From: a virus
Reading direction: 5' to 3' (one strand)
Length of the DNA: 33,956 nt
Virus record (IMG/VR): IMGVR_UViG_3300034119_000805
Span: 1 to 33,956 of that record
Under the pieces are notes generated by a model that saw only the letters and a program-made list of their open reading frames with translations, had not been told where the DNA came from and made no database searches. The position numbers and the translations under genes were made by a program. Of this stretch, positions 2 through 33,653 are shown in pieces (within the stretch, counting starts at the first letter, position 1; each line of letters opens with the position of its first letter).

Positions 2-2284
2 AACGGAGTTAATACTCTTGATAGTTCTAGTGTCGGTACGGGTAAGACAGTGGTCGCAGTCCATTTGGCCAGAGATTTGGGAAAGCCTGTCGCTGTACTT
101 TGCCCGAAAGCGGTTATCCCATCATGGCAGCGTGAGTTCGCCGAACACGGAATCAGTCCGGAATTCATTTTGAATTTTGAGAAGGTCCGTGGCGGCAAAA
201 CCAAATGGATGTCGAAGGTTGGCAAAAAGATCATGCGCTGGAACCTGAACCCTGATTCCTTGATCCTTGTCGATGAGATCCACAAATGCCTTCCGGAAGG
301 AACGAAAATCTCAACCCCCCATGGAGTTACTGATATCCAGTCTCTTCGTATTGGTGATCTGGTAGAAACGCCAATCGGCCCACGAAAAGTTACTGCTGTA
401 TGGGATACGGGGAGTAAAGACATTTTATCCTTTACAACTGAAAATGGTAGTCTACTCTCAAGCCATGACCACAAAATATTTACCGAAGAAGATGGATGGA
501 TCAGGGCCAGCGAAATCAAAGAAGGACACACTTTATTCATGCACGGAGTGTGGAACAAAGCTGACGGATCAATCGGGGAGATCGAAGAAATGCCGTCCAT
601 GTTATTGGGAGTCGAGACGAGTAACCGAAACCAGAGAATGCGTAGTCTGCAAAACCCCCATAATAAGATCGCCAAGCAAGTTTACTGCACCAAAAGAAAA
701 AACTACGTGCAGCCGAAAATGTTCAAGTCTTTATCTGTGGCAAACGTCGCCCCATCTTCGGGAACAGACAGCGCGTATCATGAAACAAGTGCAAGCCAAA
801 AATCCAGAACCTTTCAAAAAACGTTGGGAAGAAATGAAATCCAACAATCCAATGTTGGACAAAAAAATACGCGAACGAGCGACGCACAATGCTCACACAA
901 CGAATCTTTTAAGGGGGAACTACCAAAAAAATCTTACTGGAGGAAACGGAAAAGGACTCACTGCACCTCAAAAAATGCTATTGGAATCCCTCCCATGCGG
1001 GTGGGCTGCAGAGTATATAATATGGTCGGGCAAAAAAGGAAAAGAAACTGGATGGCCAATCATGGTAGCGGATCTAGCTTTTGCAAAGAACAAGTGGGCG
1101 ATAGAACTAGACGGAGCATCGCACAACAACCCATTAGCAAAAAAACGAGATCGGAGAAAAGACGAATTGCTGATAGCGGATGGATGGAAAGTTCTTCGCT
1201 TGAAGAACGCCGAAGCATCAACCTCCCGCGTGTTAGAGTTCTTCGGATCTCTAAGTTAAAACCACAGAAATGTTGGGATATTGAAGTTGAAGAAGCCTCA
1301 TGCTTTTTTGCCGAAGGTGTATTAGTTCACAATTGCAAAGGACCTTACACGCAGAATGCACAGCTGGTCATCTCGCTGGTACAGCAGGGCTACGCTGTAC
1401 ACGGAATGTCAGCCACCGCAGCCGAAGACCCCACAGAGATGCGGGCATTAGGATATCTATTGGGATTACACTCGCTCAACAAGCCAGAGAACGGACTAAC
1501 TAGCTGGTACAGCTGGATGATGAAATACGGTTGCTATCAGGACGATTGGGGCGGCTGGAAGCTAGCGACTAAAACAAAGCTGGCTCCACTACGACACACG
1601 ATGTACGGAGTGAACTGCAACAAGCTGACGCCAGCAGACTTTCCCGATAGCTTCCGCGACAATCGTGTTTTCGTCGAGCCAACCGAATTCAAGGATCTGA
1701 AGAAAATTAACAAAGCCTACGAACAATTGGGCCTCACGCCAGCGATCATTGACGAATACATACTGAATGGTACGGTAGCAAATAGCGAACATGTGCTGGT
1801 CAATATCCTCAAAGCCCGCCAACTGGCAGAGTCCTTCAAAGTGCCAGACATCGCTGAGATGGCGGAGGATTTCATCGACGGCGGAAACAGCGTTGTGATA
1901 TTCGTCAACTTTACGGATAGTTTAAATGCTCTTATTGGACTTTTAAACTGTCCTAAAATCGACGGAAACCAGACAGCGACTCAGAGACAACAGGCAATCG
2001 ATGACTTCCAAAGCGACAAAGCTAACTGCATTGTAGTCAATATCGCCGCTGGTGGTACTGGTCTATCGCTGCATGACATCAACGGAGTCCGCCCACGCAT
2101 CTCCCTCATCTGCCCCACGTTCAATGCTAAGGACTACCTGCAGGTATTGGGCCGGATACACCGCAACGGAGCAAAGTCAGACGCGCTACAAAAGGTGCTA
2201 GTCGCCGCCGGAACTATCGAAGAGCACGTGATGAAAGCAATACGGATCAAGACTGGAAATTTGGAGGCAATCCATGGCGCGTAA
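2..2284 (+). CDS. SNF2/SF2-type DNA helicase interrupted by an intein (5' partial)
   Basis: The frame is open from base 2 and the true start lies upstream. Walker A (SVGTGKT, Lys at about residue 15) is followed by motif II DEIH (residues 91-94). Beyond the intein come motif V (AAGGTGLS, near 2045) and motif VI (QVLGRIHRNG, near 2150). This order is that of SF2/SNF2-like ATPases, which move along or remodel DNA; in phages such genes sit with replication genes, as here. Removing the 349-residue intein joins DEIHK to CKGPYTQ and restores a normal motif II region, leaving about 411 residues of helicase in the window. Splicing is therefore needed for an active enzyme. The stop overlaps a small ORF that starts at 2274. 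Helicase superfamily is confident; the exact substrate is unknown. Confidence 0.93.
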   Translation, partial: NGVNTLDSSSVGTGKTVVAVHLARDLGKPVAVLCPKAVIPSWQREFAEHGISPEFILNFEKVRGGKTKWMSKVGKKIMRWNLNPDSLILVDEIHKCLPEGTKISTPHGVTDIQSLRIGDLVETPIGPRKVTAVWDTGSKDILSFTTENGSLLSSHDHKIFTEEDGWIRASEIKEGHTLFMHGVWNKADGSIGEIEEMPSMLLGVETSNRNQRMRSLQNPHNKIAKQVYCTKRKNYVQPKMFKSLSVANVAPSSGTDSAYHETSASQKSRTFQKTLGRNEIQQSNVGQKNTRTSDAQCSHNESFKGELPKKSYWRKRKRTHCTSKNAIGIPPMRVGCRVYNMVGQKRKRNWMANHGSGSSFCKEQVGDRTRRSIAQQPISKKTRSEKRRIADSGWMESSSLEERRSINLPRVRVLRISKLKPQKCWDIEVEEASCFFAEGVLVHNCKGPYTQNAQLVISLVQQGYAVHGMSATAAEDPTEMRALGYLLGLHSLNKPENGLTSWYSWMMKYGCYQDDWGGWKLATKTKLAPLRHTMYGVNCNKLTPADFPDSFRDNRVFVEPTEFKDLKKINKAYEQLGLTPAIIDEYILNGTVANSEHVLVNILKARQLAESFKVPDIAEMAEDFIDGGNSVVIFVNFTDSLNALIGLLNCPKIDGNQTATQRQQAIDDFQSDKANCIVVNIAAGGTGLSLHDINGVRPRISLICPTFNAKDYLQVLGRIHRNGAKSDALQKVLVAAGTIEEHVMKAIRIKTGNLEAIHGA
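287..1333 (+). mobile_element. Intein in helicase motif II (349 aa, one continuous frame)
   Basis: The intein starts at Cys (codon 287-289; CLPEGTKI) and ends with VLVHN (His 1328, Asn 1331); the next codon is the +1 extein Cys at 1334. Block A is at the start (CLPEGTKISTPHG, then IQSLRIGDLVET). Block B is LSSHDHKIFTEEDGW near 460-500 with the SxxH pattern. Block F is CWDIEVEEASCFFAEG just before VLVHN. The block F His found in many inteins appears to be Ser here; the penultimate His and terminal Asn are kept. Between the splicing halves (about 560-1215) the same frame stays open but encodes a basic, Ser/Asn-rich, unrecognisable sequence, because this stretch encodes an endonuclease in the +1 frame. 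Insertion directly after DEIHK is typical of inteins, which favour active-site motifs. Confidence 0.92.
444..1259 (+). CDS. EDxHD (Vsr-like) homing endonuclease nested out of frame in the intein
   Basis: This ORF lies in the +1 frame relative to the intein and is entirely inside it. The N-terminus has two Cys clusters (CTEC with CRPC at about residues 33-55, then CVVC with CSRKC) that look like zinc fingers. A NUMOD-like helical stretch follows (about 110-150). The C-terminal catalytic core resembles Vsr-type nucleases: GGNGKGLTAPQKMLLESL, VADLAF (Asp210), IELDGASH (Glu221, Asp223, His227), then RD (Asp236) and GWKVLRLKN. This pattern matches the EDxHD homing endonucleases known from split-intein loci. 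It would cut intein-less helicase alleles and spread the element. The start is uncertain: ATG 444, 465 or 492 (the last right after a GAAGAAG run). The stop TAA at 1257-1259 lies 75 nt before the intein ends. Confidence 0.85.
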   Translation: MVVYSQAMTTKYLPKKMDGSGPAKSKKDTLYSCTECGTKLTDQSGRSKKCRPCYWESRRVTETRECVVCKTPIIRSPSKFTAPKEKTTCSRKCSSLYLWQTSPHLREQTARIMKQVQAKNPEPFKKRWEEMKSNNPMLDKKIRERATHNAHTTNLLRGNYQKNLTGGNGKGLTAPQKMLLESLPCGWAAEYIIWSGKKGKETGWPIMVADLAFAKNKWAIELDGASHNNPLAKKRDRRKDELLIADGWKVLRLKNAEASTSRVLEFFGSLS

Positions 2285-3723: not shown

Positions 3724-3798
3724 GCCCCTTTAGTATAACGGTTATTACACGAAATTTGTAATTTTGATATGATGGTTCGACTCCGTCAAGGGGCTCCA
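3724..3798 (+). tRNA. tRNA-Thr (anticodon UGU)
   Basis: The acceptor arms GCCCCTT (3724-3730) and AAGGGGC (3788-3794) pair over 7 bp, followed by T and an encoded CCA (3796-3798). The D arm is GTATAACGGTTATTAC. The anticodon stem CGAAA/TTTTG (with one G-U) closes the loop TTTGTAA, giving anticodon TGT, which reads ACA threonine codons. The T arm is GATGG-TTCGACT-CCGTC with one wobble pair. All four arms fold and the loop lengths are normal, so it is probably functional. It is the only tRNA I found. Confidence 0.92.
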
Positions 3799-13868: not shown

Positions 13869-14107
13869 TTGTCTGTGGGGTTATTTCTCTTGCGCCATTT
13901 CACAATGATCTGGCTGACCATGTTATACAGTGAAATAATACTGATTGCAAGCAGAATAACGCTGCCGCTAAAGCGTACCCACCAGTCCAGTTGTTCCTGA
14001 AATGAAGTAATTAGAGCGAGTGAGGATGCGGCGATTCCAGTAAATCCATTAGTGTAAGACCACATAGGGTTAACAGATAGGTCAGTGGTTAAGTGGTCGC
14101 TAATCAT
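13865..14107 (-). CDS. Holin candidate, 80 aa
   Basis: The N-terminus is polar (MISDHLTTDLSVNPMWSYTN), followed by hydrophobic segments GFTGIAASSLALITSF and FSGSVILLAISIISLYNMVS, and a basic C-terminus (KWRKRNNPTDK). Length, topology and position just upstream of a small membrane gene and the amidase fit a phage holin that permeabilises the inner membrane. It lacks sequence features that would name a holin class. It starts 6 nt after the stop of the connector-like gene. Confidence 0.65.
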   Translation of the reverse strand: MISDHLTTDLSVNPMWSYTNGFTGIAASSLALITSFQEQLDWWVRFSGSVILLAISIISLYNMVSQIIVKWRKRNNPTDK

Positions 14108-26264: not shown

Positions 26265-26299
26265 CAGGAACACTACACTATCGGAGTGTAGTGTTCCTG
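26265..26299. repeat. Perfect 15-bp stem-loop between structural genes
   Basis: CAGGAACACTACACT (26265-26279) and AGTGTAGTGTTCCTG (26285-26299) pair perfectly around ATCGG. It lies between the decoration-like gene and the 274-aa gene. No T-run follows in the leftward direction, so it may be an RNA processing or stability hairpin, or a weak terminator. The bases just left of it contain GGATACAGG-type words. Confidence 0.8.
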
Positions 26300-26718: not shown

Positions 26719-26751
26719 GCTAAGGGGTTCCCGTTATGGGAACCCCTTAGC
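26719..26751. repeat. Perfect 14-bp stem-loop after the capsid gene
   Basis: GCTAAGGGGTTCCC (26719-26732) and GGGAACCCCTTAGC (26738-26751) pair perfectly around GTTAT, 8 nt after the capsid stop. Very stable GC-rich stem, but no T-run follows leftward. It could lower expression of downstream genes relative to capsid, or protect the 3' end of capsid mRNA. Confidence 0.85.
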
Positions 26752-29807: not shown

Positions 29808-32072
29808 TTACTGTTCCTCTTGGGGAGGATTCATTTTTCTGAATTCAAGTGCCGCTTTAGAGTCGCGAATGGCGACGTCTTGGTCAGCTTTACGCTGGCG
29901 GATTTGAAAGTCAAGCTCTGCTTTCTGGCGAGCCATGTCCATTTTCATTTGATGCTCTTGCATCTTGAGGTCAATTGGATTCGGTCCGACCTGTTGCGGC
30001 TGCCCGCCTTCGGCAGCCATTTGCTCTTGCGCGTCCATCTGATCACGCTGGATCTTCTGGAGTGCCTTGCTAGTGTTGTTAATAGCCTCCTCAGCGAATT
30101 GCATGATCTGTTTGGCCTGACTGACCATCGATTGCAACGAAGGGTCGCCAGAGGCAAACTGGAGCGTTTCTCCGATATGCTGGTAGAACGCTTGGAGCAT
30201 CGGCAACACTTGTTGCGGATCCGCCTGTCCGACGTTGATCTGTTCGATGATCTGGTTGAGCACTGGCAAGTGTGTCTGCAAGTGCATTCCGTGCATCTCG
30301 TTCGGCACAACAGGAACGGGCTGTCCGGCCTGAAGTTGCTGGTTCTCGAAGAACGCGATCTTGAGGTCAACGGTTGGGCGTTCCTCAACATTGGCGGGAA
30401 CGTAGCGGTCGGCAAGATCATGGCCGACGCGTGTGCTGACGATGTCGCGAGTGAGGTTACGGCGACCGACCTCATCGAACGTGCCAGCCATTGCTTGCAT
30501 CTCGCGGAGAGCGACAAGACGGTTTGCGTAGGAACCATTTCCGATAGAGCGGACGGCCTTCGTTTTGCTGAGGTCGAGCTTCTTGATGAACTCTGCCTCG
30601 ACACCGCGATCGGCACAACGTTTGTAGAATTCCTTAATAGCTGAATCTGGTCTTTTGTTTTCGACGATACGACGAACGACCTCACGCATCAGGCGAGTCC
30701 ACGCTGCGTAGAACAAGTTAAGCGAAGCGCCAGACAGTCTGGTAGCGACGTCCATGTCGGCGACCACTTGCATCTGGTTCTTGTAGGGAGACGACTGGTT
30801 CGGTCCGTAGGTCGAGACGGTGTCGGTGTTGAGCTGAAGCTGTGTTGTGAGATCCTGCAACGCTGGCATCACAGCTTGTGACAAGTTTGGGATCGCCTTC
30901 TCGACGATCTTCACGTTGGGCGACACAATGGCATACGCACCGTAATAGGTGAACTGCAACTCATCCAGAGCGCGTTGTGATTCCGGCTGTAGCATGACAG
31001 CGGAGGACAGCATCGCGCCATCAATCATCTGGCAACGGAGACGGTTGCTAGTCTGGATGTGGTTGAAGATGCGCTGGCCCAAACCACGTATGGAGTGGTA
31101 GGTTCCGTTGGAACCAACGCCGTATGTAAACATGACATACGCCTGTTCTGGCGACGAATAACGAGAAAGTTTCTTGTAGCAAAAGTCTTTCGGAGAGTCT
31201 TCAGCGCAAATAAAATGACTGACACTGCCATCCATCTCACGGATAAGGAAGTGTAAAACAGACACAGTGGGGTTCTGAAGTCCAGTATATAAGTCATTAT
31301 TTTTTAGCTCCTGCTGGATTGCTTCCCAATCTGTGTAGAGGGAGCCACCTTCGGAATAGCGTCGGCCAGTTGTCTTAACATTTTTGGTGATGATGCGCTT
31401 TACTTCGTCCGGATTCCACCCGACCTTAGTGGCGACCTCTTCGTTACGGACGAACGAATAGAGTTCATGCAAAAGATATTCGCGGCGGATCACCGCGACA
31501 TCAACGGAGTTCTCGCTAGACGGGGTTTGGCGAGGGATGAGGATATCAGCAAAACTACCGACACGGAAACGCCACTCGTCTGGATTGTCAAAGTAGGCAA
31601 CGCCGACTCCGTGCTTGATGAATGTGGTACAGAGGCGGAGATAGGAACTGTGAAACTCTGGCCAGTTGCGAAGCATATGTGTCACCTCTTCGGCGATTAC
31701 GTCTTCTTTGTAGCCCATCTGGCTTTTTTCTCCGAGCGTTCCCTTCACTTCGACGAGCTTTTCGAGAGAGCTGTAGAGATCGACGTAAGCCGAAAGCGAG
31801 ATGTCCAACAAGCGCTGGGCGTCTCCGAAGTTTAGGTTCGTCTTGAGCTGCTGCCCACTAGAAGCAAGTTTTGCAGAATCGTACGGAGCCGCGCCGTCAA
31901 ACATCGAATCGATACGGGCGCGAGTGACTGATGACTTCTCATCCCCACGACGAAGAGCGTTGAAAATTGACAACGCCGATTGTACGTCTTTAAGTCTGGT
32001 TTCGACTGGCTTGCCCTTTTCGTCCAAGGCTTCTAAAGCAAGACCGTCGATATCGAGATGCGTAGATGACAT
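29808..32072 (-). CDS. Portal protein, 754 aa
   Basis: Length, position at the head of the morphogenesis genes, and sequence style fit a short-tailed phage portal: MFDGAAPYDSAKLASSGQQL, then NWPEFHSSYLRLCTTFIKHG, VGVAYFDNPDEWRFRVGSF, IRGLGQRIFNHIQTSNRLR and ISLSAYVDLYSSLE. A long Gln/Met/Glu-rich C-terminal coiled coil (QMDAQEQMAAEGGQPQQVG, QMKMDMARQKAELDFQIRQR) resembles the barrel and tail of large portals. It forms the dodecameric DNA gateway at one capsid vertex. A sigma70-like promoter lies just upstream. Confidence 0.85.
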   Translation of the reverse strand: MSSTHLDIDGLALEALDEKGKPVETRLKDVQSALSIFNALRRGDEKSSVTRARIDSMFDGAAPYDSAKLASSGQQLKTNLNFGDAQRLLDISLSAYVDLYSSLEKLVEVKGTLGEKSQMGYKEDVIAEEVTHMLRNWPEFHSSYLRLCTTFIKHGVGVAYFDNPDEWRFRVGSFADILIPRQTPSSENSVDVAVIRREYLLHELYSFVRNEEVATKVGWNPDEVKRIITKNVKTTGRRYSEGGSLYTDWEAIQQELKNNDLYTGLQNPTVSVLHFLIREMDGSVSHFICAEDSPKDFCYKKLSRYSSPEQAYVMFTYGVGSNGTYHSIRGLGQRIFNHIQTSNRLRCQMIDGAMLSSAVMLQPESQRALDELQFTYYGAYAIVSPNVKIVEKAIPNLSQAVMPALQDLTTQLQLNTDTVSTYGPNQSSPYKNQMQVVADMDVATRLSGASLNLFYAAWTRLMREVVRRIVENKRPDSAIKEFYKRCADRGVEAEFIKKLDLSKTKAVRSIGNGSYANRLVALREMQAMAGTFDEVGRRNLTRDIVSTRVGHDLADRYVPANVEERPTVDLKIAFFENQQLQAGQPVPVVPNEMHGMHLQTHLPVLNQIIEQINVGQADPQQVLPMLQAFYQHIGETLQFASGDPSLQSMVSQAKQIMQFAEEAINNTSKALQKIQRDQMDAQEQMAAEGGQPQQVGPNPIDLKMQEHQMKMDMARQKAELDFQIRQRKADQDVAIRDSKAALEFRKMNPPQEEQ

Positions 32073-32112: not shown

Positions 32113-32568
32113 TTATTCTTCTTCGTTGAAATTCGCGTCGGCTCCCCACACATGTCGAACGAATCGAGCGAGACGAATCTGGTAGCGTCTCCCGTCAGCG
32201 CGGCGGATCGAGATGTACCGCTTGTTGGTCGGGCCATGCAGGAAGTCCGGAACGATGTAGTAGCTGTTGGCGTGCACCCCACACTTCGATTTCCGTAGGC
32301 AGTAGACATCGCCGTAGTTGGTGACAGCGTAGTCTGGGAAGTCATCATGCAAACGAGCATTCTCCCGCTCGAAGACATATTCGTGGGTGAGCTGCATTTC
32401 GGGCTCGATAGCTTTAGAAAGATTGAGACGACGGCGGACACCATCGTCGCACCAAACCCTCCCGAAAACTCCATTGTCAGATCGGCTAACGCGGAGTCGC
32501 TTGCCATCGCGGTAGAGGCGATTGTCAGAATCTACGGTGTACTTTGTGACGTTGGGGATAATGGGCAT
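32113..32568 (-). CDS. NUMOD4/HNH-like DNA-binding protein, 151 aa
   Basis: The middle contains FPDYAVTNYGDVYCLRKSK, the NUMOD4-type pattern (Y-x-V-T/S-N-x-G-x-V) found in HNH homing endonucleases, followed by YISIRRADGRRYQIRLARFV and RHVWG, where HNH proteins usually have v-x-x-H-r-l-V-A. The catalytic His is not evident (Arg at that place), so this may be an inactive, DNA-binding relative or a domesticated regulator. An N-terminal segment (YRDGKRLRVSRSDNGVFGRV) repeats part of the same layout. It is the first large gene of the leftward module, immediately before the portal promoter. Confidence 0.6.
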   Translation of the reverse strand: MPIIPNVTKYTVDSDNRLYRDGKRLRVSRSDNGVFGRVWCDDGVRRRLNLSKAIEPEMQLTHEYVFERENARLHDDFPDYAVTNYGDVYCLRKSKCGVHANSYYIVPDFLHGPTNKRYISIRRADGRRYQIRLARFVRHVWGADANFNEEE

Positions 32569-32579
32569 GGCGGTAAAAT

Positions 32580-32670
32580 GATATCGGCCCCTTAAAAGTC
32601 AAGATCTTTTTCTTGCTGTGAGAAAATAATTTTCTGTAGTGAAAAAGATAACGGCCCCCTAAGAGTCAAG
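32580..32670 (-). promoter_or_regulatory. Two 24-bp direct repeats upstream of the structural operon
   Basis: Copies at 32580-32603 and 32647-32670 match at 21 of 24 positions and lie 67 nt apart. On the leftward strand the consensus is CTTGACTyTTArGGGGCCGwTATC. Both contain TTGACT and a TATC 13 nt further on, too close for a standard sigma70 promoter. They are candidate binding sites for a phage or host regulator, or phage-type promoters, controlling the NUMOD4-like gene and the structural genes. Confidence 0.6.
32621..32635. promoter_or_regulatory. AT-rich palindrome between the direct repeats
   Basis: AGAAAAT-A-ATTTTCT is a perfect palindrome with 7-nt arms and one central base, the size of a dimeric repressor operator. 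It lies between the two 24-bp repeats. Confidence 0.45.
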
Positions 32671-32690
32671 TTATTTTCCCCCCTATATAT

Positions 32691-32766
32691 AAAAACTTTT
32701 CTATAACTACTATAAACTGATTGGGCTATAACCCAATCAGTTTATTCTATTCTATAGAAAGTTTTT
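32691..32766. repeat. Nested inverted repeats in an AT-rich region (origin or RNA candidate)
   Basis: An inner perfect 13-bp stem (TAAACTGATTGGG 32713-32725, CCCAATCAGTTTA 32732-32744) with a 6-nt loop is enclosed by an outer stem (AAAAACTTTTCTATA 32691-32705, TATAGAAAGTTTTT 32753-32766) with one bulged base. Flanks are TATATATA-rich. The layout could form a long RNA structure or a cruciform, and suits a replication origin or a regulatory RNA. Confidence 0.7.
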
Positions 32767-33037
32767 GAAGTGGGTCGTAGCACCATTACAAAAGTATACA
32801 CATTTTAAGGGGGTAAGACGCTGCAACCTGCATCCTGTAAGGCTTAGCGGCGATTCCCGCACTGTAAATTCCGCTCCGTTTATCGTGCGTAAACGCAAAT
32901 AATATGCGTTAATAAGCCCTAAAAAGGGTCAAATAAACTAGAAAAGTAACAAGTCGTATAAAAGGCGATTAAACAGATTGGCCTAAAAATGGCCAAAAAT
33001 GGGGGGTCTTATGCAACAAGTCGGGATGTTGGATAAG

Positions 33038-33071
33038 CTGATAAGTGAAAAAGCAACAAATCACTTATCAG
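33038..33071. repeat. Perfect 11-bp stem-loop at the end of a small leftward gene set
   Basis: CTGATAAGTGA (33038-33048) and TCACTTATCAG (33061-33071) pair perfectly around a 12-nt A-rich loop. It lies just past the small leftward genes at 33061-33508 and may end or stabilise their transcript. No clear T-run follows. Confidence 0.7.
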
Positions 33072-33138
33072 AACCCCTATCCTGAGCCATGATTCCGGTC
33101 ACTCGAACGATCTTGACGGTCAGCTTTTCGCCGCCCAT
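33061..33138 (-). CDS. Possible tiny ORF, 25 aa
   Basis: ATG at 33138 opens a frame MGGEKLTVKIVRVTGIMAQD and a few more residues, ending at the hairpin arm. It overlaps the 3' end of the 50-aa membrane gene by 19 nt in another frame. The peptide has a plausible strand (LTVKIVRVTG), as seen in very short phage genes, but there is no other evidence. Confidence 0.25.
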   Translation of the reverse strand: MGGEKLTVKIVRVTGIMAQDRGSDK

Positions 33139-33272
33139 ATGAGTCCGACATTGGCCATCGCGTATGAAAACCACACCAAAGCCCATGGCAAGTCGCCCTT
33201 AATCGTATAACTTACGCCCACCGTCGCGTATAGGACCATCGCGATCCCAACAACTATCTGCTCGAAACTCAT
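33120..33272 (-). CDS. Small two-helix membrane protein, 50 aa
   Basis: The ATG at 33272 overlaps the stop of the upstream gene (ATGA). The product has two membrane segments: IVVGIAMVLYATVGVSYTI and PWALVWFSYAMANVGLIWA, joined by KGDL. The hairpin with a short charged turn and the phrase WFSYAMANVGLI are familiar from small phage membrane proteins of unknown function. It is far from the lysis cassette, so a holin role is not implied. Confidence 0.72.
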   Translation of the reverse strand: MSFEQIVVGIAMVLYATVGVSYTIKGDLPWALVWFSYAMANVGLIWAAKS

Positions 33273-33508
33273 TTCGTTATTCCTGATTCCCGTTTCCTTT
33301 TCCGTTGTTCCTTGATCCGGTCTTTGTTCTTCGCGTAGTAGCTCTTGTTGTACTGCTTCATCGCTTCCCGCTCCTCTGGATCAAGGAAGTCGCGCACCTC
33401 TCGCTTCCGAACGATGATGTGTTTGTTCTTCTCGTAATAGGATCGCTGATACGCGATTCGGGCTTCCTTGTTTTTCAAGTAGTACTCTTGCTTTCGTGGG
33501 TCGGGCAT
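33269..33508 (-). CDS. Basic repeat protein, YYxKNK type, 79 aa
   Basis: From ATG 33508 the product starts MPDPRKQEYYLKNKEARIAY and contains three copies of Y-Y-x-K-N-K (EYYLKNK, SYYEKNK, SYYAKNK) in a highly charged helical context. The same repeats form the N-terminal DNA-binding part of many phage HNH and endonuclease VII-like proteins, but no Cys/His nuclease centre is present here. It is either a stand-alone nucleic-acid-binding protein or a truncated endonuclease. An upstream in-frame start (33553) is less likely because the pattern starts at the chosen Met. Confidence 0.65.
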   Translation of the reverse strand: MPDPRKQEYYLKNKEARIAYQRSYYEKNKHIIVRKREVRDFLDPEEREAMKQYNKSYYAKNKDRIKEQRKRKRESGITK

Positions 33509-33653
33509 GCCCAAGACTAGCCAAAGCCGGACCGTTGTCAAATTTTTTCTCACGGACGCATATATACATGTGTGTCTCTCACGAAAAACTGACTAGTGAC
33601 GGGTGGCGTGTCGGCTCTCAACTTGTGACAATGTGTGTAAAACGGAGTCGGCT

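Follow-up and report, generated by a model that had tools for sequence, protein, structure and literature searches.

A nested palindrome in a fragment of a phage genome is one of a family of sites whose copies match within a genome while the genomes differ, which occur in both orientations and whose palindromic form is kept by compensatory change. This palindrome is probably a gene-control site. We tentatively read it as a copy of a nested palindromic DNA site, specific to the phage, that sits at fixed gene junctions and would control or insulate operons, an interpretation that we place first while holding it at less than even confidence.

The 33,956-base fragment, an IMG/VR virus record analysed as a whole (the window; G000 in our numbering), encodes on its plus strand a helicase with an intein domain, a PolA-type DNA polymerase, an exonuclease and a primase, and on its minus strand most of the large genes of its right two thirds, among them the genes for a tail-like protein and for the probable portal protein p754, which has no PHROG or Pfam match. 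The helicase gene (50-2284, plus strand) contains a match to the Pfam domain Intein_splicing (E 1e-9), and a tRNA-Thr (TGT) gene lies at 3724-3798. The palindrome is located in a 700-nt gap (32569-33268) between the minus-strand genes p151 and p94, upstream of the probable portal gene (Table 1).

Table 1. Features of the p94-p151 junction and its surroundings (window coordinates).
Feature	Position	Strand	Remarks
Nested palindrome, portal-side copy (P)	32691-32766	-	Read in the sense of the flanking genes
Inner arms	32712-32725 and 32732-32745		14 bp; sequence hypervariable among phages
Loop of inner stem	32726-32731		6 nt
Outer arms	32691-32705 and 32752-32766		AT-rich, near-conserved type AAAAACTTTTCT/AGAAAAGTTTTT
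19-bp direct repeat, copy 1	32652-32670	-	Minus strand CTTGACTCTTAGGGGGCCG, with TTGAC in it; follows the hairpin when read in gene sense
19-bp direct repeat, copy 2	32585-32603	-	Just ahead of the p151 start codon
p151	32113-32568	-	Small, fast-evolving protein directly upstream of the portal-like gene
p94	33269-33553	-	Small charged protein; the palindrome lies downstream of p94
p754 (754 aa), probable portal	29808-32072	-	Assigned by length, C-terminal coiled coil and genomic place

A first-pass annotation had placed nested inverted repeats at 32691-32766, and they are present at exactly that position, far beyond chance: as RNA, 32685-32772 is predicted to fold at -30.1 kcal/mol, which none of 200 dinucleotide shuffles equalled (mean -8.9, sd 2.3; z = -9.2). 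The two tiers described there were borne out, with the correction that the inner stem measures 14 bp around a 6-nt loop rather than 13 bp, and the shorter inverted repeats reported nearby also exist, for example one of 11 bp at 33038-33071. On the minus strand the outer arms read AAAAACTTTCTATA ... TATAGAAAAGTTTTT and pair save for a surplus A in one of them. Of the window's perfect hairpins with a loop no longer than 60 nt, only one has a longer stem (15 bp, 26265-26299) and one has an equal stem (14 bp, 26719-26751). Both of these have 5-nt loops, lie in gaps between minus-strand genes and may be ordinary terminators. The two 19-bp direct repeats each begin with CTTGAC on the minus strand.

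Neither the portal-like protein nor the terminase of one relative gave a tblastn match in 50,697 phage records, and the latter matches PHROG 2 (terminase large subunit) by profile. Many uncultivated relatives were found in IMG/VR, many of them on contigs of 50-68 kb; three MAG contigs are labelled Opitutae, Verrucomicrobiales and Acidimicrobiaceae. A first search yielded 53 loci and a second 142, of which 80 were kept, many on the same contigs; removal of duplicates left 92 upstream regions, 90 of which were scanned for hairpins and which are not independent loci. A tblastn match to p94 was present in 37 of the 53 first loci and in 76 of the 92 non-duplicate regions. In 73 of the 90 loci the best hairpin of the interval between p94 and p151 or the portal gene beat the best of 15 dinucleotide shuffles. 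As P was defined as the best hairpin of that interval, with a span limit of 87 nt, another hairpin may have been taken in weak loci. The 40 representatives share a design of 71-87 nt (the upper value being the span limit), in which outer arms of the type AAAAACTTTTCT/AGAAAAGTTTTT (AAAAAGTCTTCT and similar in some clades) enclose an internal loop and an inner stem, often of 13-16 bp, with a loop of about 4 nt. When the outer arms alone were used as the query in a scan of viral_contigs, 24 loci were recovered, some sharing a contig: 16 (18 matches) had 13-15 of 17 central pairs and lay behind TerL (10 loci) or by p94/portal (6 loci), while the remaining 8 had 2-3 of 11-12 central pairs and matched neither gene. 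We also noted short repeats resembling ACCGCTCAGAGATT in the p94-p151 gap of L012 and L013, and a tandem pair of the palindrome, its members about 119 nt apart, close to the stop codon of p94 in L043, L086, L092, L093 and L094.

Across the relatives the outer arms are near-conserved, whereas the inner arms are hypervariable yet complementary. In 21 ungapped 76-nt copies from one clade 96.1% of cells pair, compared with 50-65% in slid registers, a figure that is favoured by the choice of members, which required the outer arms and at least 10 of 14 inner pairs. Double changes occur in 8 of the 15 inner pairs of this clade, and 47 cells are doubly changed versus 14.9 in shuffles. The earlier suspicion that the stem is functional is thus supported by its conserved place and by strong covariation among relatives. 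The inner arms can also change fast: in L021 and L023 the portal genes are 98.7% identical, fourfold sites agree at 0.97 and the 60-nt flanks at 0.90-0.92, whereas identity is 0.72 over the whole hairpin and 0.63 over its inner 36 nt. As the inner arms are identical within three other pairs (L105/L107, L065/L077 and L066/L128), rapid turnover is a feature of some clades only.

TerL was located in 49 of 50 contigs, and we classified 25 of the 50 TerL regions as carrying a second palindrome (T) behind the TerL stop codon; the search for T covered 600 nt, counted from a point 60 nt ahead of the end of the TerL match. Each T hairpin was compared against the P hairpins of 48 genomes, and for 22 of the 25 genomes with a T hairpin scoring above 15.5 the genome's own P was the best or tied-best of the 48, the near-identical strains G047 and G048 tying with each other. 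The exceptions ranked second behind a close relative (G033), fifth (G015, whose hairpin lies 324 nt away) and 38th (G010, whose P call is doubtful). Relative to its own P, the better-scoring orientation of T was the same one in 13 and the flipped one in 10 of the 23 genomes with an own score of at least 30, the call being ambiguous in G006, G008 and G050, where fewer than 4 points separate the two orientations. A further contribution to the matching could come from template-switch repair of quasi-palindromes. In the window's near-twin G001, whose portal is 98% identical, the window palindrome recurs unchanged over 76 nt at 58781-58856, and a T copy behind the terminase (about 34582-34657) is identical over 53 nt. 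This T copy is itself enclosed by another palindrome, of about 20 bp (TATTTACATTGTAGTTTGAT/ATCAAACTACAATGTAAATA), at about 34540-34690 (locus L144), which adds a third tier. A BLAST scan of 27 contigs with their own palindromes gave 1-4 copies per contig, including tandem copies in G051, G044, G040 and G043 and further copies ahead of a DUF932 gene (Pfam) in G033 and G039, ahead of a gene for 361 aa in G051 (P-loop-like by eye, with no Pfam match) and close to a contig end in G002. TerL and portal are separated by 18 kb in G005 and by 24 kb in G001. In G006 (L140:742-13377) the intervening stretch contains a giant ORF of 4211 aa, which we considered as a virion polymerase and set aside, as it had no significant Pfam match; PF00940 (T7-like RNA polymerase) was matched in none of 22 contigs, the positive control being equally without a match.

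Such hairpins could act at the level of RNA: a bidirectional transcript hairpin would end or process the upstream message, as an AU-rich terminator with a T run or as an RNase III-type double-stranded site, and recombination alone would keep the copies alike. The copies do lie close behind the TerL and p94 stop codons and ahead of the next gene, in either sense the outer arms place an A run before the hairpin and a T run after it, the fold is stable, and symmetric hairpins would tolerate flips. G-U pairs on the transcribed strand, however, are not in excess over A-C in the helix interiors of 40 non-redundant hairpins (85% similarity, drawn from 59 strong ones and read in gene sense): helix-internal A-C mismatches number 32 versus 24 G-U, 19 versus 10 when two flanking pairs are required on each side and 9 versus 7 when three are required. 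Unlike these, terminator-like hairpins of the same contigs, scored in the same symmetric way and including chance hairpins, gave 84 A-C versus 105 G-U (30 versus 52 under the stricter two-pair rule; Fisher p 0.13 for palindromes versus control, 0.009 under the stricter rule). The palindromes do not combine a GC-rich stem with a T run in the manner of an intrinsic terminator, as their stems are AT-rich (892 A-T versus 306 G-C pairs in the 40) and their T runs, about 3-8 by eye, are only 3 long in some clades, unlike the GC-rich hairpin with T run at 13918-13998 of G005. In the window a simple terminator scan lists the inner stem as terminator-like on the plus strand, that is, antisense to the flanking genes. 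RNA punctuation would also leave the matching of inner arms within a genome unexplained, and we regard it as a serious alternative that is nevertheless on the unlikely side.

The lack of a G-U excess together with the flips relative to transcription therefore favours an element that functions, or is maintained, at the DNA level rather than as sense-strand RNA. The proposal of the first-pass annotation that the repeats form a structured RNA fared poorly on the same grounds, and Rfam matched nothing in the window but a tRNA; strong covariation of a hairpin need not indicate RNA. The lambda nut and HK022 put sites offer a comparison, as they are hairpin sites of phage-type-specific sequence, two per genome, placed ahead of major operons; those act as RNA in one orientation, whereas the palindromes occur either way round and show no preference for G-U pairs.

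A predicted promoter pattern (TTGAC-N16..19-TAnnnT, a sigma70-like consensus match) lies within 150 nt downstream of 18 of the 23 T copies scoring at least 17, the background rate over 27 contigs being 0.075 per kb and strand, and downstream of three of the four further copies, the exception being G002, where the flank ends at 187 nt. Only 3 of the 40 P representatives are followed by the full pattern; TTGAC alone occurs within 90 nt of P in 10 of the 40 (2.7 expected in shuffles) and upstream in 6 of the 40. The median spacing from the terminase to the next gene is 152 nt with T (n = 25) versus 36 nt without (n = 25). Since TTGAC is also found at the TerL stop in 9 of the 12 T-lacking sequences listed, the promoter does not depend on the palindrome. 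Moreover, since P mostly has no promoter match of this kind downstream and in one clade ends about 16 nt ahead of the p151 start, the site does not act identically everywhere.

We also weighed a cis site for replication, packaging or recombination, such as paired origins like P4 ori/crr, a pac site or att-like sites bracketing the TerL-portal stretch. The elements are palindromic, AT-rich and often paired, T adjoins TerL, and extra inner-arm sequences, direct or inverted, lie outside the hairpin in L008, L017, L072, L028 and L038, forming larger palindromes or iteron-like sets (the iteron-like copies being those of L008, L017, L028 and L038). GC skew shows no change of sign in the window, which extends 1.2 kb beyond the hairpin. 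Expressed as the mean percentile among random places of the same contig, the uncorrected skew step is 0.36-0.37 at P and 0.37-0.38 at T. Correction for gene strand with a common slope gave 0.22 at P (10 of 27 contigs at or below 0.05) and 0.47 at T (1 of 18); with a slope per genome, P is at 0.23 when the slope is fitted away from P (6 of 27 at or below 0.05) or at 0.30 (4 of 27), whereas T has no step (0.47-0.49, n = 18, with 0.5 expected). In G001 the step at P stands at percentile 0.02 in every version, and the steepest increase or decrease of skew is often found no more than about 1.5 kb from P, its sign varying by clade.

Because the sign of the step varies between clades, a module boundary explains it equally well; the shift in composition at P is modest and would fit an origin, a border between modules or uneven expression. 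For the replication origin suggested in the first-pass annotation, the strand-corrected step at P, larger than at random places, counts in favour, and the clade-dependent sign of the step counts against. The step fits an origin or a module border better than a simple operator. Against a cis site of the kinds named above, T shows no step, contigs run through both sites at permuted places, and T is missing in half of the genomes. An att site of a tyrosine integrase and a protelomerase telomere site were rejected, neither enzyme being encoded in any of 27 contigs (controls positive in 14 of 14 and 1 of 14 genomes, respectively). Taken together, we judge a replication, packaging or recombination site to be improbable.

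Another candidate is a selfish palindrome of the REP/MITE kind, which would multiply inside phage genomes and survive only where it falls between genes. One to four near-identical copies per genome, with tandems, flips, intergenic locations and extra places in G002, G033, G039 and G051, would be expected of such an element; on the other hand, most copies occupy the same two junctions in divergent genomes, and none of the 16 palindromic loci of the arm-only scan lies elsewhere. REP/BIME palindromes served by RAYT are likewise intergenic, placed behind stop codons and concerted, but here copies are few, positions are conserved and none of 27 contigs encodes a Y1 transposase (control positive in 5 of 14), although a host enzyme could still serve. 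The T-bearing junctions are longer, but no target-site duplication was noticed at them. Self-copying is the least probable of the explanations that we considered.

Returning to a DNA site that controls or insulates operons, we envisage sites before p151 and the portal gene, behind TerL in about half of the genomes and singly elsewhere, which would punctuate or control transcription at the border between one operon and the next. The palindrome would act mainly as DNA, either through the binding of a phage protein or by extruding a cruciform, and recombination between palindromic copies may homogenise and flip them. A candidate binder is p151. In 67 of 92 regions the portal-like gene is immediately preceded by an ORF of 90-260 aa, and 37 relatives of p151 are 16-70% identical to the window's version. 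Its AlphaFold2 model (mean pLDDT 89) has no fold match by Foldseek (best E 7e-3, TM 0.17). Its resemblance to homing endonucleases is faint: two of 38 family members weakly match NUMOD4 (best E 0.005), and one relative matches the PADLOC HEase (homing-endonuclease) entry (E 8e-6). Inner-arm similarity correlates with p151 similarity (r 0.70; partial 0.32 given portal) only slightly better than with p94 (0.66) or portal (0.59; n = 44), which does not prove contact. As inner arms diverge among phages with similar p151 (in L021/L023, p151 similarity is 0.90 but inner-arm similarity 0.42), a p151 that reads the whole arm is disfavoured.

A more specific reading, which we hold to be doubtful, takes the inner arms as a fast-changing identity code, a palindromic word of each lineage's own that would stand in matching copies at operon junctions and that a phage factor dedicated to it would read as DNA. 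The word might then be driven to change by conflict with satellites or with relatives infecting the same cell, and recombination would copy it between sites so that all change together. The palindrome provides a well-defined cis element for an uncultivated phage family, with natural replicates in which sites diverge between phages and stay matched within one, and hence a natural experiment on how phage regulatory repeats stay in step and what reads them.

Among titles and abstract openings of the open-licence PMC literature we recognised no description of paired nested palindromes of this kind; the nearest likenesses in print are ESAS and the repeated motifs of some other phage clusters. ESAS of Cluster K mycobacteriophages are described as 17-bp imperfect inverted repeats with a short spacer, several per genome, in intergenic positions upstream of genes; their consensus varies by subcluster, SigA-like promoters are reported to lie within them in Adephagia, and regulator binding has been proposed, the function being unproven (PMC3203893, PMC11373665, PMC12699233). 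The palindromes reported here resemble ESAS in being repeated inverted repeats with short loops upstream of genes, though of a longer nested form, and in having a consensus that differs between groups. They differ in that there are 1-4 copies, each a nested palindrome of about 76 nt with outer and inner tiers, in that they flip, in that inner arms differ from one lineage to the next in most cases yet agree between copies in the same genome, and in that the promoter-like match lies downstream (at T) and not within the motif. The ESAS-linked 13-bp SAS motif GGGATAGGAGCCC is not enriched in the window (1 match with up to 3 mismatches versus 5.7 by chance), and for this reason, together with the different copy number and architecture, we do not file the palindrome as an ESAS member. 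Clusters O, EF and EG likewise carry repeated motifs of unproven function; those of Cluster O mycobacteriophages and Cluster EG Microbacterium phages are dyad-symmetric sites of 17 bp and 18 bp, many in short intergenic gaps (PMC4351075, PMC7302621). These palindromes are short (7-bp or 8-bp arms), number 8-34 copies and have the same sequence cluster-wide, unlike those described here. The nested palindrome may nonetheless work like ESAS and like the motifs of these three clusters.
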